From positions 1-64,000 of the forward strand of contig NZ_LNAL01000007.1 in assembly GCF_001483135.1 (NCBI RefSeq): a stretch of 64,000 nucleotides of DNA, read 5' to 3'. Position 1 is the stretch's first letter. Every line of letters starts with the position of its first letter. A program made the translations under genes and the position numbers. This DNA comes from Solirubrum puertoriconensis. GTDB lineage: Bacteria; Bacteroidota; Bacteroidia; Cytophagales; Hymenobacteraceae. Of this stretch, positions 4,309 to 38,125 are shown piece by piece. Under the pieces are notes generated by a model. The model saw only the letters and a program-made list of their open reading frames with translations. It searched no databases and was not told the origin of the DNA.

Positions 4309-4386
4309 CTAGCTGCCGTATTAGCACCGCCTACACCTAAGCTGCGCAGTAGTTTACTTCTGCTTACCCACTCATCCACCGCTTCT

Positions 4387-21022: not shown

Positions 21023-22138
21023 CTACGATTCGTAGTAGTTCAGCACCTTGTGGCCGGCCTCGCGCAAGGTGGCGTCGCGGCGGAACAGCTCCAAGTCGGC
21101 GTGCATCATGTCCTGCACCAGTGCGGGCAGGTCGTACTGCGGTTTCCAGCCCAGCTTTTCCTGTGCTTTCGTAGGGTCGCCGATGAGCAGTTCCACCTCG
21201 GTGGGGCGGAAGTACTCCGGGTCGACGGCTACAATCTCCTTACCTAGGGGCAACTGGAACTCGGGGTTGTGGCAAGCCACCACGTGGCCGGTTTCGTCGG
21301 CGCCTTCGCCAAAGAACGTTAGCTCAATACCCACTTCGCGGAAAGCCAGGCGCACGAACTCGCGCACGGTGGTCGTCACGCCGGTGGCAATCACGAAATC
21401 CTCGGGCTGGTCCTGCTGCAGGATGCGCCACATGGCTTCCACGTAGTCCTTGGCGTGGCCCCAGTCGCGCTTGGCGTCGAGGTTGCCCAGGTACAGCTTG
21501 TCTTGCAGACCTAGGGCGATGCGGGCGGCGGCGCGGGTGATTTTGCGCGTCACGAACGTTTCGCCGCGCAAGGGCGACTCGTGGTTGAACAGGATGCCGT
21601 TGCAGGCGTACATGTTGTAGGCCTCGCGGTAGTTCACCGTAATCCAGTAGGCGTAGAGCTTGGCCACGGCGTAGGGCGAGCGGGGGTAGAAGGGCGTGGT
21701 CTCGCGCTGCGGCACCTCCTGCACCAAGCCGTAGAGCTCCGAGGTGCTGGCTTGGTAAATGCGCGTCTTCTCCGTCAGGCCCAGGATGCGGATGGCCTCG
21801 AGCAGGCGCAAGGTACCCACACCGTCCACGTCGGCCGTGTACTCGGGCGTGTCGAACGACACCTTCACGTGCGACATGGCGCCCAGGTTGTAAATCTCGT
21901 CGGGCTGCACCTCCTGCACAATGCGGATCAGGTTCGTCGAGTCCGACAGGTCGCCGTAGTGCAGCTTAAAGCGAATGTCTTGTTCGTGGGGGTCTTGGTA
22001 GAGATGGTCAATACGTTCGGTGTTGAAGAGCGAGGAGCGGCGCTTGATGCCGTGAACTTCGTAGCCTTTGCTGAGCAGCAGTTCGGCCAAGTACGAGCCG
22101 TCTTGGCCCGTGATGCCGGTGATGAGGGCACGCTTCAT
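21023..22138 (-). CDS. gmd: GDP-mannose 4,6-dehydratase
   Basis: The 371-residue SDR enzyme makes GDP-4-keto-6-deoxy-mannose from GDP-mannose. It begins [20 protein letters not shown] with the NADP-binding GxxGxxG, and shows HGIKRRSS, the catalytic QASTSELYG and [18 protein letters not shown], and [20 protein letters not shown]. Length is normal. It heads the gmd-fcl-GT61-GT2 group; tandem terminators for the upstream gene lie just before it. The leader carries CTCCACCACCT about 19 bases before the ATG. A very AT-rich stretch at 22200-22265 is the likely promoter. Confidence 0.97.
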
Positions 22139-22294
22139 GGTAGAGGAGCAAAAGAGAGGTGGTGGAGATACGACAAAGTCTTTGCTAGAACTTTGACGGC
22201 AAATAATTGGATTACTTATCTTCTAAACAATGGTTTCAATAAATAAAATTATTTTTTAATTCAAAAAAGTACCATTGCGCCCCGTTGAATGCAA

Positions 22295-22325
22295 AAAGCC
22301 CGGCCATGCGTATGGTCGGGCTTTG
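22295..22325 (-). terminator. Second of two tandem terminators after the large beta-helix gene
   Basis: AAAGCCCGGCCA pairs with TGGTCGGGCTTT around TGCGTA. On the minus strand the stem ends in a T-run (CTTTTTG). Together with the hairpin at 22342 it should strongly isolate gmd from transcription of the beta-helix gene. Confidence 0.8.
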
Positions 22326-22341
22326 CTAACTGCTTGTAAAA

Positions 22342-22373
22342 CAACAAAGCCCGACAGTTGCCGGGCTTTGTTG
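22342..22373 (-). terminator. First of two tandem terminators after the large beta-helix gene
   Basis: CAACAAAGCCCG pairs with CGGGCTTTGTTG around ACAGTTGC. On the minus strand it is followed by TTTTAC. It lies about 30 bases past the stop codon at 22403 and shares its stem sequence with the second terminator, suggesting duplication. Confidence 0.82.
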
Positions 22374-22402
22374 AGTGGATTTTGAAACGAACCGAGGGAA
22401 GC

Positions 22403-25400
22403 TTACTGCGTGATGCGGAAGATTTCCAGGCCGGATACGTTGATGGCACCGCCGGTGCTGCGCAGTTCGATGATGCCGTTGGTAACGGTTACTTTCTGCG
22501 GAGCCGTCTTCTGCCATTTGCCGGCTGCACCGCTGGTGTAGTTCGTCAGCGAAGGCTGGCCGTTCAGCGTGGTGCTGTAGGTTTGCGAATAGTTGTCCTC
22601 GAACACGAAGTACGATACTTCGTAGGTGCCGTTCGGTACGTTGTTCACCGTCAGACGCAGGTTGTTGCTCCATACGAACGAGCGGATCATCTGAGCGCGG
22701 GCAGCATCGGTAGCGGGATTCAGCGTAACCGATTGTGCCGAAAGCTTGCCACCGTTGGTGGTGATGTCCTTGAAGGTAGTGCCGTCTTCGTATTTGATGC
22801 CGTCGATGGTTTGAGCCGGGCCATTCAGGTTGATAGCGCGGAACAGAGTGCGGGTTTCAACCGGAGTAGTCGGAGCCGTGGTGGTGTTGTGCTTCCATAC
22901 TTCCACGCCCGAGAGGTTGGGGTGGCCGCCCGAAGTGCTCAGGGCAATGCTGCCGTTGCTCACGTCAACCTTGAAGGGGCCTACACGCTCCCACTGGCCA
23001 GCACCGCCGGTGTTGTGGTTCGATTTCACCGTCTGGCCGTTTACCAGAATGTTGGTGGTTTCAGCGTTGTTGTCTTCCCAGATGTAAGCGTACACCGAGT
23101 AGCTGCCAGCGGGCACGCCCGTCAGCGTTGCGCCTACTGTGCTACCGCCCACAGCGGTGTTCAGCATGCCAGCGCGGGTAGCATCGGTAGCGGGGCTCAG
23201 GGTGGTAGCAGCGTTCGAGAAGTTGGTGCCGGTTACCTGTAAGTTAGCAGCGCCAGCCGAAGCTTCCCACTTGTTGCCGTCGAGGGTTACAGCGGTACCG
23301 TTGATGTCGATGCCGCGGTAGAAGGTGGCGTTAGCCGGGCCAGCCATGGGCGTGTTGCCGGTAGTCGGAACTGCTTGTACTGATACGCTTACAGCAGCCG
23401 AGTTGGTGGTTGCACCAGCGTTGTCGGTAGCGCGCGCCGTGAGGCTCAGCGAGCCGGCAGCAGCCGGAGTAAAGCTAAACGCATAAGGAGCAGAGGTGTC
23501 TTCGCCAAGCTTAGTGGTGCCGTTGAAGAATTCGACTTTAGCAACAGTGCCATCAGCATCAGCAGCCGTTGCCGACAGCGACAAGGCCTGACCTAGGGTG
23601 AGGCTAGTTGCAGCCGAGAGGGTAACAGTAGGAGCTTGGTTTGCAGCAGCAGCGTGCTTCCATACTTCCACGCCCGAGAGGTTGGGGTGGCCACCCGTGG
23701 TGCTCAGGGCAATGCTGCCGTTGCTCACATCGACCTTGAAGGGACCTACGCGCTGCCAGTTGCCAGCCGAGCCGGTGTTTAGGCCCGCCTTAACGGTTTG
23801 GCCGTTGAGTACGATGTCGGTGGTTTCAGCGGCGTTGTCTTCCCAGATGTAAGCGTACACCGAGTAAGTGCCAGCCGGAACGCTCGTGAAGGTAGCACCC
23901 ACCGACGAGCCACCTACAGCGGTGCGCAGCATGGTGGCGCGCTCGGGCTCGGTATTAGGCGTAAGAGTTACCGAAGGATTGCTAAAGTTGGTGCCAGTTA
24001 CCTGGAAGTTGGCAGCGCCCGTAGCCGCTTCCCACTTGTGGCCATCGAGGGTCACAGCGGTGCCGTTAATGTCGACGCCGCGGTAGAAAGTAGCACCCGT
24101 GGGGCCGCTCATGGGCGTGCTGCCGGTGTTGCCGCCGCCTTCAGTAGGAGCGGGAGCGGGTGTAGGCGCGGGGGCCGGAGCAGGAGAGGTAGGAGTGGTA
24201 GGGGTAGGCGAGCTACCCGTACCCGAACCACCTACACCGAGGCTGATGCTGTTCTGCTGTAGCTTCTGCTGCCACAGAGTCCATTCGTTCTTTTCCGTGT
24301 CAACCGTAATGGGGTTGGGCATGTGGTTGGTGCTCGTGCAGTTGTTGCAAGCACCGGTGCTCAAGTCATGACGGTTGGCGAAAGGCACATTGTAGCCTTC
24401 GCGGTAATAACCAATGGTGTTGTTGTCCGTCTGGTTATTGTAGAATACGTTGCCCGGTTGCTGGTAGGCGTTGAAGATAGCCGTAGCAGCCCAAGCCGAG
24501 GGCAGTTTGGTACCGTCGGGCAAGTAGCCGGCCGTTACCATGCGGTTGTGGTGGAAGCGTACATCGTGGCCCGAGGCAATGTTCATCGCCGCGTTACACG
24601 TCGAGATGAACTGGTTGTTGTAGGCATCGATAAACGCAGCGGTAGTCGAGGCCGACGAACCATCGCCGTCGGTGGTCATGCCGGTACCGGTAAACTTGCT
24701 GGCGTTGGCCGGAATGGGGTAAGCACCTTGCACGTAGTTGTCGTGCACACGCGCCGGGCTACCCGAAACACCGCCCGAATTGTAGAAGTTGATGTTGTCT
24801 TCTACCAGCGAGTTATTGGGTTCGTTTACAACCTGGTTCCAGGCAACTTCGATGTTGCCTACGTTGCGAACCTGGTTCAGACCTAGGAACTGTACGTACT
24901 CGCCACCGCCGTTGCGGAAGCGGCCGTCAATGTTCTTGGCCACGTTGCGGCGCACCGTCAGCGTTTGCGAAGGCGAACCATCGCCGCTCCACTGGTAAGC
25001 TGCAATACCCGAGGTGTGTTCGAAGTAGTTGTTCTCAACAAGTACCGAACGACCCGAGTTTACCTCCACGAAACGACCGTGGCGGCGATTATCCACGCTC
25101 TGGTTCAGGCCGTAACCTTTGTTGTTGCGGATGATCAGCGTGCCACCGCCGTTCTTCGCATCAATCAGGTCGCCGGCGCCTGCCAGGATACAGTTCTCAA
25201 TAGTAACTGGTTGGGTGGTCTGGATTCGAATACACGGGGTGTTAGAGTCCGTGCTCTTGAAGTTGCCAGAGTAGGTACCACCTTGCGTAATTACGAGGGG
25301 TGCCGAATACGTCACGTTAGGGGCTTGGCCCTGCGCTAGCGATACGCTAGGCTGCAGTCCAATCATCGACAGCACGAGCACCACTGAGGGCAGAAAGCGT

Positions 25401-25453
25401 GCACCAGAGTTTTCACGGTCAAACCGCGGCCGGAATCCAGAGGTTTTTTGCAT
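22403..25453 (-). CDS. Secreted right-handed beta-helix protein with three carbohydrate-binding-like modules
   Basis: The 1016-residue exported protein starts at the ATG at 25453, giving a signal peptide ending near SVSLAQG (residue 43). Residues 45-410 form a parallel beta-helix with pectate-lyase-like repeats. A Pro/Ala/Thr linker follows, then malectin- or CBM-like module 1 (FYRGVDINGTAVTLDG to SGVEVWKH), an Ig-like domain (APTVTLSAATSLTLGQ to AVSVSV), a near-copy module 2 and a divergent module 3 ending GLEIFRITQ. The protein may bind or cut the polysaccharide made by this locus; lyase, epimerase or structural roles are all possible. No type IX C-terminal tail is obvious. The helix part is paralogous to the protein encoded at 26109. 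Confidence 0.88.
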   Translation of the reverse strand: MQKTSGFRPRFDRENSGARFLPSVVLVLSMIGLQPSVSLAQGQAPNVTYSAPLVITQGGTYSGNFKSTDSNTPCIRIQTTQPVTIENCILAGAGDLIDAKNGGGTLIIRNNKGYGLNQSVDNRRHGRFVEVNSGRSVLVENNYFEHTSGIAAYQWSGDGSPSQTLTVRRNVAKNIDGRFRNGGGEYVQFLGLNQVRNVGNIEVAWNQVVNEPNNSLVEDNINFYNSGGVSGSPARVHDNYVQGAYPIPANASKFTGTGMTTDGDGSSASTTAAFIDAYNNQFISTCNAAMNIASGHDVRFHHNRMVTAGYLPDGTKLPSAWAATAIFNAYQQPGNVFYNNQTDNNTIGYYREGYNVPFANRHDLSTGACNNCTSTNHMPNPITVDTEKNEWTLWQQKLQQNSISLGVGGSGTGSSPTPTTPTSPAPAPAPTPAPAPTEGGGNTGSTPMSGPTGATFYRGVDINGTAVTLDGHKWEAATGAANFQVTGTNFSNPSVTLTPNTEPERATMLRTAVGGSSVGATFTSVPAGTYSVYAYIWEDNAAETTDIVLNGQTVKAGLNTGSAGNWQRVGPFKVDVSNGSIALSTTGGHPNLSGVEVWKHAAAANQAPTVTLSAATSLTLGQALSLSATAADADGTVAKVEFFNGTTKLGEDTSAPYAFSFTPAAAGSLSLTARATDNAGATTNSAAVSVSVQAVPTTGNTPMAGPANATFYRGIDINGTAVTLDGNKWEASAGAANLQVTGTNFSNAATTLSPATDATRAGMLNTAVGGSTVGATLTGVPAGSYSVYAYIWEDNNAETTNILVNGQTVKSNHNTGGAGQWERVGPFKVDVSNGSIALSTSGGHPNLSGVEVWKHNTTTAPTTPVETRTLFRAINLNGPAQTIDGIKYEDGTTFKDITTNGGKLSAQSVTLNPATDAARAQMIRSFVWSNNLRLTVNNVPNGTYEVSYFVFEDNYSQTYSTTLNGQPSLTNYTSGAAGKWQKTAPQKVTVTNGIIELRSTGGAINVSGLEIFRITQ
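22880..23345 (-). repeat. Direct repeat copy B encoding CBM-like module 2
   Basis: The DNA is highly similar to 23645-24115 in the same gene; for example GTGCTTCCATACTTCCACGC and GGCAATGCTGCCGTTGCTCA occur in both. Shared DNA identity as well as protein identity points to a recent internal duplication. Confidence 0.8.
23645..24115 (-). repeat. Direct repeat copy A encoding CBM-like module 1
   Basis: Partner of the repeat at 22880-23345. The two copies are separated by the Ig-like domain (about 23360-23640). The two modules share TPM-GP-ATFYRG-DINGTAVTLDG and end SGVEVWKH. Confidence 0.8.
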
Positions 25454-26042
25454 TCTGTTTTTGTTAAGAAAAAGGTCCTTTACAGGAATTGTTGCGGCTT
25501 CAACCTGGGTCGGTAACAATTCGTTCCGATGGCCAGATGTTTAATGTGCAATTGTGGGCTTCTGGAATAATTATCCTCGGAGGAGAACAGAATTAAATCA
25601 GAAAATCCATTTTTGACCGCAATGCCAACCAAGCTATTTGTTCCGGGCCCAGAAGCTAGCCTCGGTTGGCTTTGTGTCGTTACCAAGCTAAGTAAGCTTA
25701 TATTAAGCTTTTTAACCCAACTTCACTATTCTCCGTACTTAGCAGGCAACCACTTATTACCTACTCCTCTCATCACCTAATTCCCAGCTGTACAATCCTG
25801 CTGATGCACGGTGTACGCCGTTTAATCAGGTTCATTACTCAGCTATTGACTAGTAAAAGTGCAATTGCTGATGCCGGTGTTCACTGCAAATGTATAAAAG
25901 TTTTGGAAACACCAAGGGGTGCCTAAAATAAAGTTTAATTGCATTATTTATGTGCCTGTTGTGAATGCATAAATACCGAATAGGCCTTTAGGCTAGTTAC
26001 AGCGCAGTTTCCAATAGACACTTTCTAAGTAAGCTCGGCCAT
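25454..26042. other. Long intergenic region upstream of the large beta-helix gene
   Basis: About 590 bases without a credible gene; the one open frame here lacks coding character. It holds a candidate minus-strand promoter at 25887-25916, which would give a leader of about 430 bases before the ATG. A long untranslated leader or a nearer unseen promoter would both fit. Confidence 0.5.
25887..25916 (-). promoter_or_regulatory. Candidate Bacteroidota-type promoter
   Basis: On the minus strand CTTG (25913-25916) is followed after 18 bases by TACATTTG (25887-25894), matching the -7 consensus TAnnTTTG; the usual spacer is 19-21. It points toward the beta-helix gene starting at 25453. Confidence 0.45.
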
Positions 26043-26070
26043 AAAAAAAGCACCCCGAGGCAGGGTGCTG
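26043..26070 (-). terminator. Intrinsic terminator of the second beta-helix gene
   Basis: On the minus strand AGCACCC pairs with GGGTGCT around TGCCTCG and is followed by TTTTTTTAT. It lies 40 bases past the stop codon at 26109. Confidence 0.92.
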
Positions 26071-26108
26071 CTGAAAAAAAGTTTTCTGCGAGCAAAAAAA
26101 GGAGCTTA

Positions 26109-27302
26109 CTAAGGTGTTTTCGAAGCCATTAGCTGCGTTTGCTCGGGGCCGACCTTAATGCGGGATTTGGTAATTTTCTGCTGCCAGCGGCGCCACTCGT
26201 GGGCCTCCGATTGCAGGGTTATTGGATTGGGCAAATGAATGTTGGCGACGCAAGTGCTGCAATGGCCCGTGCTCAGGTCGTGCCGATTGGCCATGGGTAC
26301 CTTGTAACCGTTCTTGGCAAACCCGATGACGTTTTTCTCAATTTTGTTGGCGAAGAACACGCTGCGGGGCTTATCGTAAGCATTGAACACCGAGGTAGCG
26401 GCGTAGGTAGCTTTTAGCTCGCGGCCGTCGCGGAGGCGGCTGCTGCTTACCATGCGGTTGTTGGAGTAGCGAATGTGGTGCCCAGCAGCAATGTTCATGG
26501 CCGCGTTACAAGTTGATACCACTTGGTTGTCGTACGCCTCGACGTAGGCCGTGCAGGTAAGCGGGGTGCTGCCGTCGCCATCGGTGGTGATGCCGCTGCC
26601 AGTAAACGAATCGGCAGTGGCAGGCACGGGGTAAGCGCCCTGGATGTAATTGTTGTGGATGCGAATGGGGCTCTTGGCCGTGCCCGACGAGTTGTAAATG
26701 TTGATGTTGTCTTCGACCATCGAACGATCGGGCTCGTTGATGACCTGGTTCCAGGCAATTTCCACGTTGGGCACTGCCCGCACCTGATTCAGCAGCACAA
26801 AATGCGTTTTGCTACCGCCGCCATTTCGGTATCGGCCCGTAATGTTGAAGGTGCGGTTGCGCAGGATGCGGAGGGTTTGGTTGGCTGAGCCATTGCCTTG
26901 CCACTTATACACCACAATTCCGCCGGTTTGGCGAAGCTCGCAGTTGGCCACGGTAACAGAGTTGCCGTCGTTTACTTCCAGAAACCGACCGGGCGCCTGG
27001 TTCTCCTCGGTAGGCGCCAAGGCTACACCTACGCAGTTTTGCACCGTAAGCCGGGCGCCGCCGTTGCGTGCATCAATCAGCAGGCCGGCCCCCTCGAGGC
27101 GGCAGCGGCGCAATACCACCGGCTCGTCGGTATCGATGCGGATGCAGGGTTTGTTGGGGTTGTTGCTACGATACGTACCGGTGTAAATGCCACCACGTTT
27201 TATGATAAGTGTTTCGGTGCCGGGGGTACCGGCCTGCTCCGAAGCAGGCACTACCAAGCAAGTGCCAAATAATGACCAGCAGATAAGGCGAAATGGTAGC
27301 AT
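26109..27302 (-). CDS. Secreted right-handed beta-helix protein
   Basis: The 397-residue protein has a signal peptide (MLPFRLICWSLFGTCLVVPA) followed by a single parallel beta-helix. It aligns along its length with residues 45-410 of the protein encoded at 22403: both carry an F/Y-RNGGG stretch, VEDNIN-YNS, TTDGDGS, TCNAAMNIA and MANRHDLSTG or FANRHDLSTG followed by a Cys-x-x-Cys pair. It lacks the linker and binding modules. I chose the ATG at 27302; an upstream start at 27446 would add 48 residues before a clear signal peptide. ACACCTCT lies just ahead of the ATG. Function is unknown; a role in cutting, modifying or anchoring the exopolysaccharide is inferred from position. Confidence 0.88.
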   Translation of the reverse strand: MLPFRLICWSLFGTCLVVPASEQAGTPGTETLIIKRGGIYTGTYRSNNPNKPCIRIDTDEPVVLRRCRLEGAGLLIDARNGGARLTVQNCVGVALAPTEENQAPGRFLEVNDGNSVTVANCELRQTGGIVVYKWQGNGSANQTLRILRNRTFNITGRYRNGGGSKTHFVLLNQVRAVPNVEIAWNQVINEPDRSMVEDNINIYNSSGTAKSPIRIHNNYIQGAYPVPATADSFTGSGITTDGDGSTPLTCTAYVEAYDNQVVSTCNAAMNIAAGHHIRYSNNRMVSSSRLRDGRELKATYAATSVFNAYDKPRSVFFANKIEKNVIGFAKNGYKVPMANRHDLSTGHCSTCVANIHLPNPITLQSEAHEWRRWQQKITKSRIKVGPEQTQLMASKTP

Positions 27303-27454
27303 AGAGGTGTGTTGGGGTAGGAAGTACAAGCAGCGGGTAACAGCAGTATCAACGGCACCCTTAAATGCGCCACAGCAGGCGTACCGCACAATGGCTTGGT
27401 ACGCCTGCTTGTTACCAGCACCCGCTTGCCCTAGGTGCCACACCATCTCTGAGG

Positions 27455-28294
27455 CTAGTGCAGGAAGTAGCCCACCAGCCTGCGGGCATAGCCATTCATC
27501 AGGAACAGCGGTACCAGAGGCGTGGGGCAGTTTTTAAGGGCAAAGTGAGTGAAGTTGCGCAGGTTGCCGCCGCCACGAATACCAAACAGGTGCTCGTAGT
27601 AGCCGCGGATGCTTCTTTGTTTACGGGTTATTTCTTGGCCGCTCTCCTCGGGGTAGGTGAGCAGGTGTGCATCGTAGTTGATGTAGACGGGAAAGCCGTG
27701 CCGCCGGGCCACGCTCGTGAAGTCGTAATCGGCGAGGTAATGGGGCAGGCGCTTTTCATCAAACAAGCCAATGCTGGCAAACACCTGTGCCGGAATAAGC
27801 AGGCCCCGGCCGGGTAGGTACGTTACCGGGTGCAAGCCACGTTGCTGCTCGGGTTTCAGCACCTCCAGCAAGTCGCTGCGGCGGTGCGTCAGCCAACTGA
27901 ATACTTCGCCGCCGTAAATGGGCTTGGTGGTGGAGGCATCGAGTTCCAATGCACCTAGGAGTGCATCGGGGTGTTTTTGGGCCCACTGCAGCATGCGCTC
28001 CACAAAAGCGGCGTCGCAGATAACATCGTTGTTGAGCGTCATTACACGGTTGGCGCCGTGCTCCAGCGCCCGCCGAATGCCCATGTTCACGCCAGCCGTC
28101 CAGAAGAGGTTGCCGTCGCCCTGCAGTACCTCCACTTCCGGAAATTCCTTGGCCAGCACTTCGCTGGTGCCGTCAGTGGAGCCATCGTCGACCACAATGG
28201 TGCGGAAACGGGTGTTGGTTTGCTGCCGCAGCGACTGCAGGCACGCACGGGTATAGGCCAGGCGGTTGAATACCGGAATGACGATGTACAACAT
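27455..28294 (-). CDS. Family 2 glycosyltransferase
   Basis: The 279-residue GT-A fold enzyme opens with YIVIPVFNRLAYTRACLQSL, has VVDDGSTDGTSEVL as nucleotide-binding loop and LNNDVICDAAFVERML as the DxD-like metal site. The ending (GYYEHLFGIRGGGNLRNF) fits rhamnosyltransferase-like GT2 proteins. It is the last gene of the wza-to-GT2 run on the minus strand. Two exact CTCCACCT copies lie 17 and 31 bases before its ATG. Donor sugar is unknown. Confidence 0.92.
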   Translation of the reverse strand: MLYIVIPVFNRLAYTRACLQSLRQQTNTRFRTIVVDDGSTDGTSEVLAKEFPEVEVLQGDGNLFWTAGVNMGIRRALEHGANRVMTLNNDVICDAAFVERMLQWAQKHPDALLGALELDASTTKPIYGGEVFSWLTHRRSDLLEVLKPEQQRGLHPVTYLPGRGLLIPAQVFASIGLFDEKRLPHYLADYDFTSVARRHGFPVYINYDAHLLTYPEESGQEITRKQRSIRGYYEHLFGIRGGGNLRNFTHFALKNCPTPLVPLFLMNGYARRLVGYFLH

Positions 28295-28311
28295 ATGCCT
28301 TGGTAGAGTAG

Positions 28312-28319
28312 AGGTGGAG
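28312..28319 (-). promoter_or_regulatory. Leader motif CTCCACCT, 17 bases before ATG 28294
   Basis: Exact octamer on the minus strand, the nearer of two copies in the 54-base gap between two glycosyltransferase genes. Confidence 0.55.
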
Positions 28320-28325
28320 AAGCTT

Positions 28326-28333
28326 AGGTGGAG
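28326..28333 (-). promoter_or_regulatory. Second CTCCACCT copy, 31 bases before ATG 28294
   Basis: Exact octamer repeated 14 bases from the first copy, so the leader carries a direct repeat of the motif. Confidence 0.5.
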
Positions 28334-28348
28334 GTTGTGTGGCGGGCG

Positions 28349-29696: not shown

Positions 29697-30728
29697 CTAA
29701 GCTTGGGGAGCCGGAGATAAAACCTGGGCGTCGGGTGGAGCCAAGACGGAAGTAGGAGCGGGATTGGGAGCAGGCGCTGCGGCTGGGCGCTTAAACACGC
29801 GGCGCAGCTTGGCCGTGATGCGGCTTTGCAGAAACTCGCGGAAGCGCTGCTGGTCGCGGCGGCGGTCAATCAGTACAAAGCGGGGGTGCTGCAGCGGAAA
29901 CGGCAGCTCCAGGGTAGGCACATCGGCCTGGCTGTCGGTGGCATCCATGGTGTGGGTGCCTTGCTCGCCAAAGCCAATATTGCCCACTAGGTTAACGGCC
30001 GGCACAATGCACAAACCCGAGTTAGCCGCAATGGCAAAGTGCCACTGGTAGTCCCATACATCGGGCGGCTGCGGCAAGCTGAGCACGCTGCGGATTTTGC
30101 TGAGGCGGTAGCGCTCCTCCAGCCACGAGCTGTAAATGCCTTTCAGCTTGCCCTGGGCTTCGAGCTCGGGCAAGTGCTGCATCCGGAAATCGAAGTGCTG
30201 CCAGGCGCGGCGCCACGTAGCCCAACCCCAGCTGTTTACCTGGTTGGAGAAGTAGTACGAAGCGGCGCCCGAACCAGGCACTTGTGCGGCCTCCGCGGCA
30301 AAGTTGTTGCCGCCAATGTGCATTACGCGGGTATCGTGGCGGTAGCGGGCCAGCAGCTCGGCGCAGTAGGGAAAGAACGATTTGGCCGGAACACAGTCGT
30401 CTTCGAGGATGATGCCTTCTTCCTCGTGCTGAAAAAACCAGTCGATGGCGGTAGCCGGTGCCACGCCGCAATTGAGGTTGCTGGGCCGAAACAGCGTTTG
30501 CACCGCACAGGGCCAATCAACCAGCTCGTGCACCAGGGCGCGGGTTTCGGCGCACAGGGCTTCGTCGGTGGGGCGGTGCGGGCGGGGGCCGTCGGCGGCT
30601 ACGTACAGGCGAGTAGGCCGCACGCGCCGGATGGCTTCGAGCACGCGCCGGGTGGTATCGGGTCGGTTAAAAATGAGGAGCAGCACCGGCGTATCAAAGC
30701 CCGCGCTGGGAGAGTAATGTTCAGGCAT
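29697..30728 (-). CDS. Nucleotide-diphospho-sugar transferase, GT2-like
   Basis: The 343-residue protein has PVLLLIFNRPDTTRRVLEAI and LYVAADGPRP at the N-terminus, then EGIILEDDCVPAKSFFPYCAEL as the DDC metal site and INSWGWATWRRAWQHFD-like residues in the middle, a pattern common in Bacteroidota surface-sugar loci and related to GT-A enzymes. The ATG at 30728 is chosen over 30734 because it places the motif variant CTCCACCG at the usual 16-base distance; both are possible. Start overlaps the end of the upstream polymerase gene. The last 40 residues are Pro/Ala-rich. Confidence 0.85.
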   Translation of the reverse strand: MPEHYSPSAGFDTPVLLLIFNRPDTTRRVLEAIRRVRPTRLYVAADGPRPHRPTDEALCAETRALVHELVDWPCAVQTLFRPSNLNCGVAPATAIDWFFQHEEEGIILEDDCVPAKSFFPYCAELLARYRHDTRVMHIGGNNFAAEAAQVPGSGAASYYFSNQVNSWGWATWRRAWQHFDFRMQHLPELEAQGKLKGIYSSWLEERYRLSKIRSVLSLPQPPDVWDYQWHFAIAANSGLCIVPAVNLVGNIGFGEQGTHTMDATDSQADVPTLELPFPLQHPRFVLIDRRRDQQRFREFLQSRITAKLRRVFKRPAAAPAPNPAPTSVLAPPDAQVLSPAPQA

Positions 30729-32025
30729 CTGCATGAGCTACGGCGGTGGAGGAAATGGCCTCTTCGGTGCGGCGCGTACGGCGCGGCACCCGAGGCTGGT
30801 AGACGGCTGGCGCTGCAACCGGCAGCGGGTCCATTATGGCGAGTGCGAACCCGTAAACGGAGTACATGTAGTAGGGCCAGTCGTAGGAGAAGCTGTAGAG
30901 CAGGCTACTACCCAGGAAGGCCAGAAAAGCGGCCGAGTTGGCATCGAGGGGCTCGGGACTGCGTAGGCGGCGGATTACCAGCTTGATGGGCACCACCAGC
31001 ACCAGCAGCACGCCAATTATCCCGAAGTAAAACAGACGGTCGACGTACCAGCTGTGGAAGTGGTGGCCGGTACCGTCCTTCCACACTTTCAGCTTCGACT
31101 CGGTAGAGTAAAACTGAATGGGCAGCTCAAAACCTTTCAGGCGCATACCCGCCACGGGGTGCTCCTGAATAAACGGCTCGTACGAGCGGAACTGCTGCAG
31201 GCGCCAGCTGCCGGTGCCTTGCTTGTCGGGGTTTTGGATATCCTCGATGCTGGTTTCGAGGCGGGCCAGCACCTCGGGGTTGTTCAACACCACGCCAATG
31301 CCGCCACCTAGGGCCACCACAATCGGCAGCACGAACAAGGGCATGAACCGCTGAAACGAGAGCGTAACACCCTTGGTGCGGCGCAGCATAAACACATTGA
31401 GCGTGAGGGCCAGCAAGGTGCACAGCCACACCGTGCGGTGCTGCAGAAACACAATCATGCCCAGGGCTACAAAAAACACCAGCAACCTAGGCAGCCCGCC
31501 CTTGGCCATGTACTGGTTGAAGTAGTACAATGCTAGCAGCAGCAGCAGGTACGTCGACTCCACGTTGAAGCCGCGTTCGTTGTCCACGAAAGAAGCCAAA
31601 CTTAGGGCTTCGGGAAAATTGATGACCAAGCTGGCCGCCAGCCCCACCAGCAAAAAGCCCATCAGCAAACTTAGGGGCGGCATGCCGTAACGGCGGTAAA
31701 AACCGTACACCGCAAACAACGGCATAATTACCAGCAGCTTGTTGAACACGTGCGGGTACACCATCCAAGTATCCCAGCCAATGCGCGATTCCAAAGCCAA
31801 CGCAGCCAAGCAAGCCAGCATCACAAAATACCACTTGCGCATGGTGGGGCTGAAGCAGCGCAAGTACAGCACACTCAACCCGAGCATGCCGGCCGTGAGC
31901 AGCTGCATACACATCCAGAGCACCGGGTCGTCGGCATCCTCGAACGCAAATGCCGTAAAGGCCCGGTCGGTGAGCAGCACAACCAGCAGTACAATCAGAA
32001 AGCGGAACCGCAGGCTGATGATCAT
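30721..32025 (-). CDS. O-antigen ligase/polymerase family protein (Wzy-like)
   Basis: The 434-residue integral membrane protein has about ten to twelve hydrophobic segments (starting FRFLIVLLVVLLT) and a large periplasmic loop (about 255-345) containing GSWRLQQFRSYEPFIQEHPV and HHFHSWYVDRLFYFG, the pattern of the Wzy_C/O-antigen ligase family. In a Wzx/Wzy pathway it would join lipid-linked repeat units in the periplasm. Being beside Wzx, Wzc and Wza supports the polymerase role over a ligase role. CTCCACCT lies 18 bases before the ATG. The gene overlaps the start of the following transferase. Confidence 0.87.
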   Translation of the reverse strand: MIISLRFRFLIVLLVVLLTDRAFTAFAFEDADDPVLWMCMQLLTAGMLGLSVLYLRCFSPTMRKWYFVMLACLAALALESRIGWDTWMVYPHVFNKLLVIMPLFAVYGFYRRYGMPPLSLLMGFLLVGLAASLVINFPEALSLASFVDNERGFNVESTYLLLLLALYYFNQYMAKGGLPRLLVFFVALGMIVFLQHRTVWLCTLLALTLNVFMLRRTKGVTLSFQRFMPLFVLPIVVALGGGIGVVLNNPEVLARLETSIEDIQNPDKQGTGSWRLQQFRSYEPFIQEHPVAGMRLKGFELPIQFYSTESKLKVWKDGTGHHFHSWYVDRLFYFGIIGVLLVLVVPIKLVIRRLRSPEPLDANSAAFLAFLGSSLLYSFSYDWPYYMYSVYGFALAIMDPLPVAAPAVYQPRVPRRTRRTEEAISSTAVAHADA

Positions 32026-32052: not shown

Positions 32053-33177
32053 TTAAGTAAGCTCGAGCACGAGCGGTTCGGTTACGGCATCTTTGTAGAG
32101 TTGGCGCGTGAGGGCGGCGGTACGCTCCCAGGTAAAATCCCGGCTGCGTAGCCGGCCGGCCTCGCTCAGGCGGCGGCGCAGCGCCTTATCGGCCAATATC
32201 TGCGCCAGTTGTTCGGCTAGCTGCTGCGGGGCATCGGGCCGGAAGTAAAGCGCGGCATCTTGGGCAACCTCCGGAAAGCACGAGGCCGTGCTAAGCACCA
32301 CCGGGCAGCCGTGGGCGAAGGCCTCCAGAATGGGCAGGCCAAACCCCTCGTAATGCGAAGGAAATACGAAGGCCTCGGCGTCGCGGTAGAGGTAAGCCAG
32401 CTCGGCATCGGTAAGCGGGCCGAGCTGCACCACCCGATCGGTGAGCCGCAAGGTGCGCATCTGCTCCTGCTCTGGCAAGCTGAACGGGCCACCGCCTGCG
32501 CATACGAAATACAGTTCCGGATGTTGGCGTTGTAGTAGGCTGGCAGCTTCTAAAAAGCAACCAAAGTTTTTGTACATGCCGCGCGTGCCGGTGTACAGCA
32601 CGTAGCGTCCCGGCACCCTAGGTGCCGGGCCCGTAGCCTCGGTAGTGGTAGTGCCGTGCGGAATTACCACCACGCGCTCGGGCGGCAGGTTAAGCAAGCG
32701 CAGCGCATCGGCACGGGTATTTTCCGATACGGTAATGATGCGGCTAGCCCGGTCGGCCACGCGCTTCAGATGACTCAGTTCCCGATCGGGGTAGTACTCC
32801 GGGTACAGGTACGGAATCATATCGTGGATAGTGATGACGAAGGGCTTGCCCGCTGGCATCCGTTCCAGGAAATAATCGTCGTCGAAGAGCGTGGGATGAA
32901 ACACATCAAAATCGGCGCGCTGCAGGGCTTGGCGAGCCGCCCAGTCGTTGCAGGCTTTGATGAAGCGCCACCCGCCCGGTAGGTTGGTGTTCGGGAAAAA
33001 CGTACGGTGGTTGGTATACTGCCGGTCGCGCAGATACAAGTTGTTGCTTAGCACAACCGGCAGCTCGTACTGCAGCTTTGAGCCAGCGTGGCGCATTAGC
33101 TCCCAGAAGTACCGCGACACACCACCGTAGTTCTGGATGGTGAAGATCTGATGGTCGTATAGAACTTTGGTAGTCAT
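32053..33177 (-). CDS. Family 4 glycosyltransferase, mannosyltransferase-like
   Basis: The 374-residue GT-B enzyme contains NYGGVSRYFWELMRH near the N-terminus, ISRIITVSENTRADAL-like acceptor-side residues, YVLYTGTRGMYKNFGCFLEA in the donor domain and the catalytic EGFGLPILEAFAHGCPVV motif near residue 280. Related proteins transfer mannose or other hexoses. The start ATG overlaps the stop of the flippase gene as ATGA (33174-33177), so translation is coupled. Inside the gene, at 32609-32629, a 9-base-pair inverted repeat surrounds a CCTAGG site. Confidence 0.93.
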   Translation of the reverse strand: MTTKVLYDHQIFTIQNYGGVSRYFWELMRHAGSKLQYELPVVLSNNLYLRDRQYTNHRTFFPNTNLPGGWRFIKACNDWAARQALQRADFDVFHPTLFDDDYFLERMPAGKPFVITIHDMIPYLYPEYYPDRELSHLKRVADRASRIITVSENTRADALRLLNLPPERVVVIPHGTTTTEATGPAPRVPGRYVLYTGTRGMYKNFGCFLEAASLLQRQHPELYFVCAGGGPFSLPEQEQMRTLRLTDRVVQLGPLTDAELAYLYRDAEAFVFPSHYEGFGLPILEAFAHGCPVVLSTASCFPEVAQDAALYFRPDAPQQLAEQLAQILADKALRRRLSEAGRLRSRDFTWERTAALTRQLYKDAVTEPLVLELT

Positions 33178-34835
33178 ACCAATTCAGCTTCGGGGTCGGG
33201 AGAAAGGGCAGGCTGGTGCCGCAACTCGGGTGCGGCCACGGCCGCACCCGGCGCTACCGGAGCTGCAGGCGGTGTTGCCTGGCTCTCCGGGTGGTGGGAG
33301 GGGGCGGCACCTAGGCGGCGCATCAGCCACGCCGAGGGGGCCGCTGCCCAGCCTGTGGTGGGCAACGAAAGCTTTGCCATGATGCGTACCAGTACAGCGC
33401 GCAGTGCCTCGGGCGGCCAGAACAGTAGCAACCCACCGGCCGTGGTGGCACCGGTGAGCAACGCCAGCCCAAAGCGCACGGGCAAGGGAGCACCCGCCGA
33501 GCGCAAACCGTACATTACCAGGCCCAGCACCACAGCTACCACGGTAGCCATGGTAAGGCCGGGCACGTAGGAGCGCAGCACCGCCACCGGCGACACGGCC
33601 AGCACGCGGTTCATCAAGCTCATGTACAGAATGGTGCGCACTACCTCGCCCATTACCACAGCCGAGGCCACGCCTACCAGGCCGTACGGCGCCATAATCA
33701 CAAACAGCAGCGGCAGCAGAGCCGTGTAGCCGATGTTCAGCACCAGTTTGGGCGTGAGGGTGGCGGTGGCATCGCACACTACGCCGGCAAACATGGTAAC
33801 CATGCTCATCGAAAAGGCCACACACACCATTTGCAGAATGGGAGCCGCCTCCAGCCATTTGGGGCCCAGCATTACCAGCACAATTTCGGGGGCAGCCATA
33901 GCCGCGCCGGCGCAAGTAGGCATTACAATGGCCCCCACCAGCATAATGCTGCTCAGGTACACTTCGCGCAGCTTGGGGCGGTCGTCTTGCAGTTGGCTGA
34001 ACGAGGGAAAAATGACCTTGGCGATGCTGCTCGTGAGCAGGTAAATCGGCAGGCCAATTAGCATCCAGGCGCGGCTGTACAAGCCCAAAGCGGCCGCGTT
34101 AAGCAAGCGGCCAATCAGCAGCGTATCGAGCGAGCCGGTAAGGAACTCCAGAAAGCTGATGGCTGACATGCGCGAGCCGTACGCCACCAGCGGCCGGTAC
34201 ACTTCCCACCGAAAAATGAGCATTACGGAGTGGCGCGCGGCCACAAAAGCCATGATGGTGAGCAGCAGCAACTGGCCCACTTGCGCGCCTACCAGCGCCC
34301 ACACGCCAAAGCCTGCCCACGCCATACCAATGCCAATGCCACCGTAGCTGAGTACATAGGCGGCTACCTCAATAATGGCCAGAGTTTGAAAGCGCATTTG
34401 CCGCCGAAGCAGGCTCAGTGCAGTGGCGTTCAGGCCCGTCAGAAACAAACCTAGGGCGAGCACCCGCACCACCGGCACCACTTTGGGCTCGTGGAAAAAG
34501 GTAACAGCCAGCGGAGCGCCAACCACCAGAATGGCCGAAAACAGCGCCCCCAGCAGAGCCGAAGAAGTGAAAGCTGCCCGAACATCCTCGGTGGTGATAT
34601 CGGGCTTTTGGATGATGGCCTGCTCCATGCCCATTTGGGCGAAGTAGCTGCCGAAGCGCAGGATTACACCGGCCAAGGCAACCAAGCCAAACTCGGCGGG
34701 CGTAAGCAGGCGCGCCATTACGGCGGTGTACCCTACCTGCAGCAGTGCTGTGGTAATGGAAGCGCCGGTGGTCCACTTCACACCGTGAACCGTGGCGGCA
34801 GTAAGACTGCGCGCCGGGGCAGCGGACGAGGCCAT
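33174..34835 (-). CDS. Polysaccharide flippase, Wzx-like (MOP superfamily)
   Basis: The 553-residue membrane protein has about fourteen hydrophobic segments, with the family's N-terminal VKWTTGASITTALLQVGYTA and RLLTPAEFGLVALAGVILRF and the later GLYSRAWMLIGLPIYL. It should carry lipid-linked repeat units across the inner membrane. The last 50 residues are a Pro/Ala-rich cytoplasmic tail, unusual for the family and not needed for transport. CTCCACCT lies 16 bases before the ATG. It shares an ATGA overlap with the following GT4 gene. Confidence 0.92.
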   Translation of the reverse strand: MASSAAPARSLTAATVHGVKWTTGASITTALLQVGYTAVMARLLTPAEFGLVALAGVILRFGSYFAQMGMEQAIIQKPDITTEDVRAAFTSSALLGALFSAILVVGAPLAVTFFHEPKVVPVVRVLALGLFLTGLNATALSLLRRQMRFQTLAIIEVAAYVLSYGGIGIGMAWAGFGVWALVGAQVGQLLLLTIMAFVAARHSVMLIFRWEVYRPLVAYGSRMSAISFLEFLTGSLDTLLIGRLLNAAALGLYSRAWMLIGLPIYLLTSSIAKVIFPSFSQLQDDRPKLREVYLSSIMLVGAIVMPTCAGAAMAAPEIVLVMLGPKWLEAAPILQMVCVAFSMSMVTMFAGVVCDATATLTPKLVLNIGYTALLPLLFVIMAPYGLVGVASAVVMGEVVRTILYMSLMNRVLAVSPVAVLRSYVPGLTMATVVAVVLGLVMYGLRSAGAPLPVRFGLALLTGATTAGGLLLFWPPEALRAVLVRIMAKLSLPTTGWAAAPSAWLMRRLGAAPSHHPESQATPPAAPVAPGAAVAAPELRHQPALSPDPEAELV

Positions 34836-34897: not shown

Positions 34898-37279
34898 CTA
34901 GTTGCTATACCCGTAGGTATAGGCTTTCTTCTTGTAGCGGTACTCGTAGGTTTTGTTGAAGTGCATGTCGTTGATAATGATGTAGACATGCTTGATCTTG
35001 CCTTCGTCGTAGAGCTCGTTGATCTGGCTGATGTACGAAGGGTCGGTGTAGTTCTGGCGCACCACGTAGATGTTGGCATCGAGGTAGCGCAGCAGCACGA
35101 AGTACTCCGATACATACCCCACGGGCGGGGTGTCGAGCAGCACGTAATCGTACTCTTCGCGCAGTTGCTCCATCAGGGCCGTCATGCGCGTCGATTCGAG
35201 CAGCTCCATGGGGTTCGGCGGAATGTCGCCGCACATCAGCACATCGAGGTTCGGCACCGACGAGGAGCGCAAACAGTCGCCCAGGGGGCGTTGGTTGGCT
35301 AAGTAAGCGGCCAAGCCCGGCGCCTGCGGGTCGTAGTTGAAGTAGTTGGCTACCGTGGGGCGGCGTAAGTCCGTTTCAACCAGCACCACGCGGCGGCCCG
35401 AGTGGGCCAACTCGGCGGCCAGGTTCACGGCGCAAAAGCTTTTGCCTTCGCCCGGTACCGAGGAGGTTACCCCGATTACCTTCTTGTCGAGCCCGGCCGA
35501 GAGGTACTGCAGGTTTACGCGAATCGAGCGGAACGACTCCGCAATCGGACCTTTAGGATTATGCAGCATCTCCATGCGCTCCGATTTGTTGCCGTGGGCT
35601 ACCACACCCAACATCGGAATATCAGTGATGCGCGAGAGGTCCTCTTTGCTCTGGATGCGACGGTTGGCCTTATCCATCAGCAGCACAATACCTAGGGGGC
35701 CGAGCAAGCCGGCCAGCAGGGCCATAAAACCAACGAACAAAGGCTGCGGAGCCGAGGGGCCGTTGCCACTCATAGCTGCCCGGTCGATGATTCGTTTATC
35801 GGTGGTGTTCGTAGCCAGTTCGATAGCCGCCTCGGCGCGCTTATCAACCAAGAAGCTGTAGTTCTTGTCGTTGAAATCGGACTTGCTCTTGAGCACGGCC
35901 AGCTGACGCTCGTTTTCAGGCATGCGGCTCATCTCAGCGCGCACCTTGTTCAGCTGGGTGGTCAGGTCGGCCAGCTGAATGTCGGTCGACCGAATCATGC
36001 TGCTCAGGTTTTGCTCCAGCGAAGCCCGCGTGTTGCGAATGCGCTCGTCGAGCACCTCCACCAAGGGGTTGTTGCTGCTGGCATTCACTACCAGGCCCGA
36101 GCGCTCTTTGTACAGCTCGGCCATTTGCAGAATCAGGCTGCTCAGCACCGGGTCGTTCACGCCCGAGGCCGAGGCGGCAGTAATGGCGCGGTCGTCGCGC
36201 AGTTGGCGCAGCATGCCTTGGTAAAAGCTGCGCTGCGATGCCAGGCGGGTGCGCTCGATTTCAATGTTTGAGGTCTGCTGAATGCCCGAGGCCGATTGGG
36301 CGTTGACATCCACCACGCCGCGCTCGGCCCGGAAGGTGCTAAGCTCTTCGGCCGACTTCTGGCGGGCCTGGGCCAGTTTGGCAATTTCGTTGTCCAGAAA
36401 CTCCACGGTTTTTTGGCCCGTTTCGTTTTTCTCGCGCAGGTCGGCCGCAATGAACACGCTCATTAGCGTATCCAAAAATTGCTGCTCTTTTACGGGCACG
36501 GTGCCTTTGGTGCGCAGCTCAATAATGCGCGACTCTTGGTCAATGGTGCGCACCTTCAGCCGATCCTGGTAGGCGCCCGTGAGGCTGCCTAGGTCGTTGA
36601 GCGTGAAGAAGTATTTCTCGCCGGCAATGGCCGATGCGTTCGGCTCGGGCTGAATGGTGATGTTGAGCAGCGCATGGCGCAGGGTTTCGCCGGCGCGCAT
36701 GGTATGATCGAATTCGGTATCAATTACTTCGCGTACCAGCGAGCCGCTTTGCAGGTTGGTCAGCTGGCCCTTGTCTACTTTAGCTTGCACGCGGTAGCGC
36801 CCATCGGGCAGTATCTCCACGCTAACCTTGGTGCCGGTTAGTTGTGGGGCCCCTAGGTCGGGCACTACCCGGAACGGTACAGAACCAGCGGGTCGCTCGC
36901 GCACCTGCAAGGTCTTCACCGAGTTCAGCCAGTTATCGGGGGCGGCGTAGTAACTCACCTTAAATTCGGGCAGCTTCTCGATGGCCTGGCGCACCATGCC
37001 AGCCGAGCTAATCAGCCCGATTTCGTCTTCCATCTGAATGCCGCGTTCCTTTACCTCAAGCAGGTTCAGGAGTTCTTGGGCTTGCTTAGAGCCGGTGCTC
37101 TGGTTGCCCAGCAGCATGGTGGCGCGGTAGTCGTATACCGGCGATTTTACTTTGAGGTAAAAAAACGCCGCCGCACCAGCGAGCAGCAAACCCAGCAGGA
37201 AAAAAGTCCAGCGGGCCCGAAGCTTGAAGAATAATTGGTGAAGATCTAAGTCGTCGGAGGTGGTAGCGCGTGATTCCAT
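34898..37279 (-). CDS. wzc: Polysaccharide co-polymerase and tyrosine autokinase, Wzc-like
   Basis: The 793-residue inner-membrane protein has a Wzz-type N-terminus with a membrane segment (about 27-48), a long periplasmic coiled-coil part, a second membrane segment near 515-540 and a C-terminal BY-kinase domain. The kinase shows Walker A (SSVPGEGKS, about 607-614), Walker A' (VVLVETDLRRP) and Walker B (YDYVLLDTPP). The C-terminus is a tyrosine cluster with six Tyr in the last 17 residues, the autophosphorylation tail. It controls chain length and works with the Wza-like export protein encoded just upstream. No matching tyrosine phosphatase gene is in the window. Confidence 0.96.
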   Translation of the reverse strand: MESRATTSDDLDLHQLFFKLRARWTFFLLGLLLAGAAAFFYLKVKSPVYDYRATMLLGNQSTGSKQAQELLNLLEVKERGIQMEDEIGLISSAGMVRQAIEKLPEFKVSYYAAPDNWLNSVKTLQVRERPAGSVPFRVVPDLGAPQLTGTKVSVEILPDGRYRVQAKVDKGQLTNLQSGSLVREVIDTEFDHTMRAGETLRHALLNITIQPEPNASAIAGEKYFFTLNDLGSLTGAYQDRLKVRTIDQESRIIELRTKGTVPVKEQQFLDTLMSVFIAADLREKNETGQKTVEFLDNEIAKLAQARQKSAEELSTFRAERGVVDVNAQSASGIQQTSNIEIERTRLASQRSFYQGMLRQLRDDRAITAASASGVNDPVLSSLILQMAELYKERSGLVVNASSNNPLVEVLDERIRNTRASLEQNLSSMIRSTDIQLADLTTQLNKVRAEMSRMPENERQLAVLKSKSDFNDKNYSFLVDKRAEAAIELATNTTDKRIIDRAAMSGNGPSAPQPLFVGFMALLAGLLGPLGIVLLMDKANRRIQSKEDLSRITDIPMLGVVAHGNKSERMEMLHNPKGPIAESFRSIRVNLQYLSAGLDKKVIGVTSSVPGEGKSFCAVNLAAELAHSGRRVVLVETDLRRPTVANYFNYDPQAPGLAAYLANQRPLGDCLRSSSVPNLDVLMCGDIPPNPMELLESTRMTALMEQLREEYDYVLLDTPPVGYVSEYFVLLRYLDANIYVVRQNYTDPSYISQINELYDEGKIKHVYIIINDMHFNKTYEYRYKKKAYTYGYSN

Positions 37280-37345: not shown

Positions 37346-38125
37346 TTAATTCACCCTCAGGTAATTCAGGATCAGGGCCAAGGCCGAGATGCCCGAGAAT
37401 ACCAGGGCGAGGTTGGCGATGTTGGCGCGGTTTGTACGGGCAGCCATGGGCTCTACGTACAGCGCGTCGTTGGGCAGCAGAAAGAAGTTGGGCGACTCAA
37501 GCAGCTTCGGGTCGGTGAGGTCGAGCAAGATTACTTCGTTGCCTTTGGGAGTCGGGCGAATGAGTTTGATGTTCTCGCGGTTGCCAAACTCGGTAAGGTC
37601 GCCAGCCAAGCCCAGCGCTTCGAGCACCGTAACTTGGCCGTTATACACGAAATGGCGCCCAGGGTTTCTTACTTCGCCCAGCACCGTGATTTTAAATGAG
37701 AGCAGCTTCACCAGCACGTTGGCATCGCGCACGTAATTGCCTACCTCGCGCTGTATGCGCGCTTGGGCTTCTTCGATGGTGAGACCCTGCAATTTGACCT
37801 TCCCCACGGTTGGTAGGTTAATGTTGCCGTTGGTGTCGACGTTGTAGCCGGCCAAAAACATGTTGCCGGGGTCGCCCTGAAACACCGCCCGCGCATCCGT
37901 CACGTTAAAAATCTCATTCAGCGAGGGTTGCACACTTTGCACCCGCACCGATAATACATCGTTGGGTTGAATGCGGTAAGGCTGGAGCGTGTTGGGCGCC
38001 AATACTGCCGTCGACTTATTGTATTTGCCTTGAAAATAAGGGAGTTTGCGTTGGGGCACACAGGCCGCAAACAACAACGGCAGCACAAAAAGGCACAGCC
38101 GCACGCGGTGCAGTAAAAAGAGCAT
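37346..38125 (-). CDS. wza: Polysaccharide export lipoprotein, Wza-like
   Basis: The 259-residue outer-membrane protein has a lipoprotein signal peptide with lipobox LFAAC (Cys near 22), then the Poly_export domain (YRIQPNDVLSVRVQSVQPSL) and an SLBB domain (KITVLGEVRNPGRHFVYNG). The C-terminal helix (IANLALVFSGISALALILNY) would cross the outer membrane. It forms the exit channel and partners Wzc encoded 66 bases downstream. It heads the minus-strand assembly genes; CTCCACCACC lies directly before the ATG. The long intergenic region upstream should hold the operon promoter. Confidence 0.95.
   Translation of the reverse strand: MLFLLHRVRLCLFVLPLLFAACVPQRKLPYFQGKYNKSTAVLAPNTLQPYRIQPNDVLSVRVQSVQPSLNEIFNVTDARAVFQGDPGNMFLAGYNVDTNGNINLPTVGKVKLQGLTIEEAQARIQREVGNYVRDANVLVKLLSFKITVLGEVRNPGRHFVYNGQVTVLEALGLAGDLTEFGNRENIKLIRPTPKGNEVILLDLTDPKLLESPNFFLLPNDALYVEPMAARTNRANIANLALVFSGISALALILNYLRVN

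Follow-up and report, generated by a model that had tools for sequence, protein, structure and literature searches.

Two beta-helix proteins, one possibly tethered and one possibly secreted, in an exopolysaccharide synthesis locus of Solirubrum puertoriconensis

The first 64,000 nucleotides of contig NZ_LNAL01000007.1 of Solirubrum puertoriconensis, whose genome (G000) comprises 4.8 Mb, are referred to here as the window. Within it, a polysaccharide synthesis locus of the Wzx/Wzy type contains two reverse-strand genes whose products share a beta-helix, a short protein designated B and a long one designated A (Table 1). ATG codons at 27302 and 25453 were taken as the likely starts of B and A, respectively, while the mechanical open reading frame (ORF) finder begins them at ATG 27446 and TTG 25519. 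The analysis described here leads to a proposal that we consider about evenly balanced between true and false, namely that A and B are copies of an unnamed family of polysaccharide-processing beta-helix proteins dedicated to the exopolysaccharide (EPS) of this locus, with B tethered and A secreted.

Table 1. Features of the locus, in positions of the window
Feature	Position	Strand	Description or basis	Length
Protein B (short form)	26109..27302	-	Cys-containing N-terminal hydrophobic segment, right-handed beta-helix, ends just past the helix	397 aa
Protein A (long form)	22403..25453	-	signal peptide (by eye), beta-helix, Pro-rich linker, malectin-like module, Big_7, two malectin-like modules	1016 aa
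Beta-helix part of A	24236..25297	-	53% identity to B	
Malectin-like module 1 of A	23648..24100	-	module alignment and profile comparison	
Bacterial Ig-like domain of A (PF17957 Big_7)	23378..23629	-	curated match covers residues 631-695 of the 1038-aa frame; remainder from weaker Ig/PKD matches	
Malectin-like module 2 of A	22892..23335	-	module alignment and profile comparison	
Malectin-like module 3 of A	22406..22843	-	predicted structure, pLDDT 84; human malectin Z 13.6	
TAnnTTTG promoter-like element of A, TACATTTG	25887..25894	-	441 nt before the start codon; TTG at 25913-25915	
Leader of A	25454..25886	-	near-constant length across genomes	
Conserved covarying hairpin, 5' end of leader	25839..25871	-	folds, pair counts, model search	
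Terminator-like hairpin 3' of B	26049..26069	-	terminator scan	
Terminator-like hairpin 3' of A	22342..22373	-	listed on + by the scan; stem also reads on -, by eye	
Glycosyltransferase 2	27455..28294	-	nearest locus gene found upstream of the short form, in 18 of 18 pairs	
Wzy-like polymerase/ligase (PF04932)	30721..32025	-	Pfam	
Wzx-like flippase (PF13440)	33174..34835	-	Pfam	
Wzc-like co-polymerase (Wzz + AAA)	34898..37279	-	Pfam	
Wza-like export protein (Poly_export)	37346..38125	-	Pfam	
Gmd-like GDP-mannose dehydratase, downstream of A	21023..22138	-	presumed name; position conserved in other loci	

The shared helix and its genomic setting

The helix of B and the front part of A align without gaps, with 193 of 366 residues identical (53%, 427 bits), and the segments NRHDLSTG followed by CxxC, VEDNIN and TTDGDGS are present in both. 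A first-pass annotation of the window had described them as a paralogous pair sharing these segments, a description that holds well, since two adjacent copies occur in all 8 genomes of the genus, the present one included, which is beyond chance. It had also assigned an Ig-like domain and three binding modules to one copy, and A indeed carries a Big_7 match of 48.5 bits (Pfam cut-off 24.1) and three copies of a module of about 146 residues. The predicted structure of module 3 adopts a malectin-type fold, superposing on human malectin (9ikp) over 136 residues with an rmsd of 2.6, and matches the C-terminal domain of Bacteroides uniformis beta-glucuronidase with Z 16.6 and CBM35 domains with Z of about 10. 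Comparison of the module alignment (A3) with the malectin profile gave an hhalign probability of 96%; PF11721 malectin gave no match for the 6 members of A3, and the long forms of genomes G001 and G022 scored 21.0 and 20.8 bits, below its cut-off of 23. The NRHDLSTG/CxxC segment is not family-wide, being replaced in both copies of Hymenobacter metallicola (L019) and in the Aminicenantes relative L020, and for this reason NRHDLSTG and CxxC were dropped as catalytic markers. As a separate observation, B diverges faster than the helix of A between close species, the identities with genome G007 being 80% for 26109-27302 and 98% for 24236-25297.

Pfam matched 9 of 10 proteins of the window locus (Wza-, Wzc-, Wzx- and Wzy-like proteins and glycosyltransferases), the product of 29697-30734 giving no match. 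The names Gmd, Fcl and UGD for further genes are our own presumptive readings of their sequences, and the gene at 15267-16559 is the one we take to encode a UDP-glucose dehydrogenase. With the window locus proteins as queries, 20 loci hand-picked among the matches listed were compared with 20 arbitrary control regions from the same bacterial family. Both copies sit in a polysaccharide locus in 18 of the 20 loci, in three genera, and a homologue of the 27455 glycosyltransferase is the nearest detected same-strand gene upstream of the short form in every one of the 18 pairs, at 25-233 nt in 11 of them and at 0.9-1.4 kb, where an intervening gene is possible, in the other 7. Further Wzy-, Wzx-, Wzc- or glycosyltransferase-like neighbours are present in the 18 loci, and a Gmd homologue follows the long copy in 13. 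The control regions yielded one weak match in 5 cases and two or more in none of the 20. The remaining two loci, L078 and L080, hold a single long copy with no polysaccharide genes detected nearby, and this weighs against our proposal.

Within the bacterial family, matches, some of them weak, came from 121 of 204 genomes, which belong to 3 of 6 genera, and the named relatives L018 and L019 are Hymenobacter. Among 395 sampled genomes of the phylum, strong matches were found in 4, all inside this same bacterial family, and weak ones (E 8e-7 to 1.5e-5) in 4 more genomes of a single genus. Outside the bacterial family the helix was met in a protein of an Aminicenantes metagenome-assembled genome (L020; 34% identity, lipoprotein-like start) and on three Deinococcus plasmids from two strains, where the search marked 7 places in 3 records and one region per record was inspected. 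The relatives on QL22 unnamed3 and KNUC1210 are 37-38% identical and annotated 'hypothetical protein', and their regions contain glycosyltransferase and NPCBM genes as well as an O-antigen ligase gene, which lies 7 kb from the helix gene in one case and 12 kb in the other. In the third Deinococcus copy (L060, 12810-15077) NPCBM domains are fused to the helix, and no polysaccharide synthesis genes appear in the 29 kb shown. A distant relative with a 28% identical helix (L017, G007:C1:1113168-1114076) lies elsewhere in a genome of the same genus as S. puertoriconensis.

Relatives were also found at seven loci on six contigs of IMG/VR; a search of the phages collection gave no match for the helix. 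The L024 ORF, of 1263 codons, bears the helix at its C-terminal end and a match to a tailspike PHROG elsewhere; the helix gene of L026 has two neighbours matching tail spike, tail fiber and EPS depolymerase PHROGs, and one neighbour in L027 matches a tail fiber PHROG weakly. No PHROG match was obtained for the L025 helix ORF and two of its neighbours, nor for one neighbour in L021. The L021 ORF itself (2890-4569) places a 48% identical helix at the end of its contig, with a signal peptide and a tail resembling those of the type IX secretion system (T9SS), both by eye; it could represent phage cargo or flanking bacterial DNA. Taken with the conserved neighbourhood, the relatives in Deinococcus polysaccharide regions and among phage tail genes support the earlier suggestion that the pair might act on the polymer made by the neighbouring genes. 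The family is also an undescribed set of probably polymer-specific tools common to bacteria and phages.

Fold and candidate chemistry of the helix

No family of Pfam (window proteins, E up to 1), NCBIfam or PHROGs covers the helix, and no credible match to it was found in the PDB by sequence or by profile; the only helix matches in the PDB searches, to a PKD-domain chain (E 0.95) and to an IF-1 chain (E 0.37), were taken as chance. The general profile PF13229 Beta_helix was unmatched by the window proteins, and its cut-off of 25.9 was passed by 2 of the 6 relatives whose helix ORFs were scanned against Pfam (L021, L022, L024, L025, L027 and L060), these being L022 (26.9) and L025 (27.0). The idea of a new family put forward in the first-pass annotation is in agreement with these searches. 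The AlphaFold2 model, built with 14 sequences, is a confident right-handed parallel beta-helix (pLDDT 88, pTM 0.88), and structure comparison with VIA-align placed 410 of 495 aligned chains at Z of at least 8. The ranking was headed by the Det7 tailspike (6f7d, Z 26.9) and continued with NosD (26.1), the PL6 protein Pedsa0632 (25.9), AlgE6 (25.5), AlgG (24.7) and RbmB (24.2), with the adhesin PfbA also among the matches (24.7). The predicted fold is thus well supported and by itself does not choose between chemistries.

Residue conservation was counted in 51 sequences, many of them close relatives, which also served for the tree described below; left out were the distant L017, L018 and L019 (same contigs as G005 and G057) and a broken extra copy in L058. 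An acidic residue occupies position 198 in 51 of 51, position 241 in 50 and position 197 in 44, and position 201 is Asn in 49. In the model, residues 197, 198 and 201 (strand 196-203) and 241 (strand 236-241) are probably placed on adjacent rungs of a single sheet. Tailspike hydrolases of P22 and Sf6 carry their carboxylates on neighbouring rungs, and by analogy the most likely chemistry of A and B would be endo-cleavage by these conserved carboxylates, an activity that would fix the length of the chains and allow remodelling of the matrix. Several points weigh against so definite an assignment. E197 is lost in 7 of the 51 sequences and by strand parity the side chain of D198 may face inward, which together make the catalytic assignment weak; hydrolases, lyases, epimerases and non-enzymes are found at similar Z with no family standing well clear; and ranks 1-4 of the Foldseek search are PL6 chains.

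This last result bears on a different chemistry, in which the helix would be a polysaccharide lyase or a C5-epimerase acting on a uronic-acid unit. The Z scores of PL6, AlgE, AlgG and RbmB are all less than 3 units below that of the best tailspike, and the presumed UDP-glucose dehydrogenase makes glucuronate a plausible component of the polymer. Position 157 is Arg in 48 of the 51 sequences, 106 is basic in 48 and 216 is His in 47, which would suit a lyase; the lyase or epimerase reading as a whole we judge rather improbable. PL6 membership, prompted by the Foldseek ranks, was rejected: PF14592 was unmatched in the window proteins at E up to 1 and in the whole genome, and the PL6 profile, which contained only 3 PL6 sequences, gave an hhalign probability of 4.3%. 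Moreover, the motifs IVSIKS and LRHGN seen in our PL6 alignment (A4) are absent from the helix family; SIKS and LRHGN, invariant in A4, have a catalytic role in PL6. No equivalent Lys is conserved in the 51 sequences, the sole near-universal Lys sitting in the C-terminal helix. The Asp-Pro-His motif of C5-epimerases was not seen on reading the sequences of A and B. The earlier reading as a lyase or epimerase, by comparison with AlgG- and AlgL-type proteins of alginate loci, found no specific support.

It could also be argued that the helices have no catalytic function and serve as lectin-like anchors or cross-linkers, B at the cell and A in the matrix. The three malectin-like modules of A, the adhesin PfbA among the structural matches and the incomplete conservation of E197 would fit this role, and WceF is reported to agglutinate with its polymer stewartan (PMC7949094). 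Against it stand the near-universal acidic residues at 198 and 241 and the fact that phages have this helix within or next to their tail genes, where beta-helices often cleave. We regard non-catalytic binding as unlikely, slightly more so than the lyase or epimerase. Hydrolase, lyase and pure binder is then the order in which we would rank the functions of the helix.

Among known systems, WceF of Pantoea stewartii is the nearest in kind. In its published account (PMC7949094), WceF is a stewartan hydrolase of tailspike-like fold whose gene lies in an EPS cluster that includes wzc, as A and B are encoded in an EPS synthesis locus; slow hydrolysis of the cognate polymer is reported, longer chains in knockouts are cited, and the authors are undecided between a periplasmic and a matrix role. 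The same account describes WceF as a single protein that forms trimers, has a P22-like head domain and bears a Tat signal, whereas A and B come as a pair whose ends differ. The shared helix of B begins near residue 32, which leaves no room for P22-like head and neck domains. Regarding the question of periplasm or matrix, evolution seems here to have given each role its own gene, the helix being common to both.

Other systems resemble the pair mainly in fold. RbmB of Vibrio cholerae, described (PMC11637428) as a beta-helix lyase of a biofilm gene cluster that acts on its own matrix polymer, offers a precedent for the lyase alternative; it differs from A and B in having no sequence match to them, and PDB sequence searches retrieved neither RbmB nor a WceF-like protein. 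The PL6 alginate/chondroitin lyases (PF14592) share the fold, 7o7a aligning over 301 residues at Z 25.9 with an alignment that reaches the C-terminal helix, and differ by the profile and motif already discussed. The mannuronan C5-epimerases AlgG and AlgE reach Z 24.6-25.5 with no sequence match, and AlgG works in an EPS locus. VexL of Achromobacter (6fi2, Foldseek rank 43) has a beta-helix; its entry title makes it a periplasmic capsule depolymerase and, unlike A and B, places it with an ABC-transporter-dependent capsule; we know of no secreted partner of VexL. The tailspikes of Det7, Sf6 and HK620 have the same fold and L024 links the helix family itself to such proteins; they are virion parts, whereas A and B are chromosomal and have N-terminal signals. 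Colanic acid WcaM is likewise a beta-helix of an EPS locus, and the structural matches included only a phage protein so named, at rank 46, with no bacterial WcaM in the comparison.

Two forms, their copies and their transcription

The short and long forms, separated by us at 60 residues past the helix, differ sharply. Short forms end at most 19 residues past the helix in 18 of 18 pairs, and the 20 long forms carry 290-706 further residues. In 14 of 18 short forms, against 0 of 20 long ones, a crude script picked out a Cys where the N-terminal hydrophobic segment ends; the short form of L065 has one by eye, and those of L077 and L079 look by eye like signal anchors. Nine of the 20 long forms end in a T9SS-like tail motif, identified by a simple pattern. 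Most simply read, the short form would be tethered and produced together with the synthesis operon, and the long form would be secreted and separately controlled, the probable localisation of A and B being drawn from the sequences of these relatives. B, lipoprotein-like or membrane-anchored, would be held on the cell and act on the chain during or just after export, and A, secreted with its three malectin-like carbohydrate-binding modules under its own promoter motif and long leader, would act on the polymer in the matrix. This distribution is weakened by the 4 of 18 short forms and the 3 of 3 Deinococcus forms not flagged for Cys, by the atypical lipobox of B in the window (FGTC), and by the end of A in the window, which lies within module 3 and has no T9SS tail.

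The helix-coding stretches of the two copies contain long identical tracts in 3 of 19 pairs (1056 bp in L077, 359 bp in L072 and 272 bp in L074), the longest identical tract of the window pair being 16 bp. The tree clusters the copies by species, and not by form, in L075, L076, L077, L079 and the L072/L074 couple, and also in L065 with support of 91/91, below the starred level; in the other lineages, that of the window included, it does not. Its backbone is poorly resolved (14 of 47 inner branches are open), and the branches of the phage rows are long. The identical tracts and the grouping by species would, in some lineages, be accounted for by gene conversion or by repeated duplication, and suggest that both copies share one substrate; conversion may thus keep them matched to one polymer. 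These tracts, together with the stable place of the pair in a synthesis locus in 18 of 20 loci and three genera, argue against a domesticated phage tailspike aimed mainly at phages or competitors and not at the cell's own polymer. The homologues in phage tail gene regions would suit such an origin, and we nevertheless hold that use of the pair to be highly improbable.

Both genes had been described as separate transcription units with strong terminators. There is a terminator-like hairpin after each gene, and A is preceded by a TAnnTTTG element, named after what we take to be the Bacteroidetes promoter consensus; this part of the description stands. The rest fares less well, since no TAnnTTTG site occurs in the 400 nt upstream of B, and the scan found 5 terminator-like sites in all, fewer than the shuffle mean of 8.2. 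No TAnnTTTG site precedes the short-form frame in any of 18 loci, L070 having one inside the frame ahead of the helix. Given the missing site and a gap of 152 nt after the glycosyltransferase gene, it is more probable that B forms the end of the upstream operon. Between these two genes lies a strong inverted repeat, GCAGGCGTACC...GGTACGCCTGC, at 27375-27408, which on reading has no T run.

The leader of protein A

The distance from the TAnnTTTG element to the start codon of the long form is 434-443 nt in 34 of 35 genomes and 425 in the remaining one, and despite this steady length the leader DNA is scarcely alignable beyond close relatives. For 19 later genomes the start codon was the Met-Gln start that a script placed 420-450 nt downstream, each genome having one and some another Met too. 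L075, L076, L077 and L079, four of the first 19 pairs and outside the 35, have no site at that distance. A fuller form of our proposal, more tentative than the proposal itself, would be a two-compartment editing of the EPS by a tethered and a secreted tailspike-like depolymerase matched by gene conversion, in which only the secreted copy stands under a new class of structured leader RNA of almost fixed length (434-443 nt). Whatever the function of the helix, a leader of fixed length is a regulatory puzzle in its own right.

The hairpin at the 5' end of the leader folds with a mean z of -2.9 over 34 leaders (100 shuffles each; L073 positive), and the whole leader with a mean z of -2.5 (12 shuffles each), negative in 33 of 34. 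The pairs of the hairpin were drawn by eye from the window, and in a fixed register 68% of cells pair. A first pair count gave a covariation of 0.303 against 0.173 when shuffled, the pair counts being also above slid versions; a second, on an alignment fitted to the structure and comprising 20 new sites and two partial antisense matches, gave 0.237 against 0.120. Weighing against a shared structure, RNAalifold drew no pairs on a gapless alignment of 70 columns and none on 14 whole leaders, and within four clusters of close relatives its covariation terms were mixed (-3.6, -1.6, +6.4 and +5.8). Rfam, applied to 22000-28500, had no match in the leader and four sub-threshold matches near 22.1-22.4 kb. 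In the open-licence PMC literature searched, neither such a leader, nor this helix family, nor a pair of beta-helix proteins in a Hymenobacter EPS locus was recognised.

A model of the hairpin (R1), built from 14 genomes, found one site per genome, and no second one, in 34 of 204 genomes at E 0.01, these 34 including the 14. The leader of A is possibly a new structured leader RNA. The remaining 20 sites all lie upstream of a gene with the Met-Gln N-terminus of the long form, and 18 of these genes have frames of at least 815 codons, those of G069 and G064 being cut by the end of the contig or of the fetched stretch.

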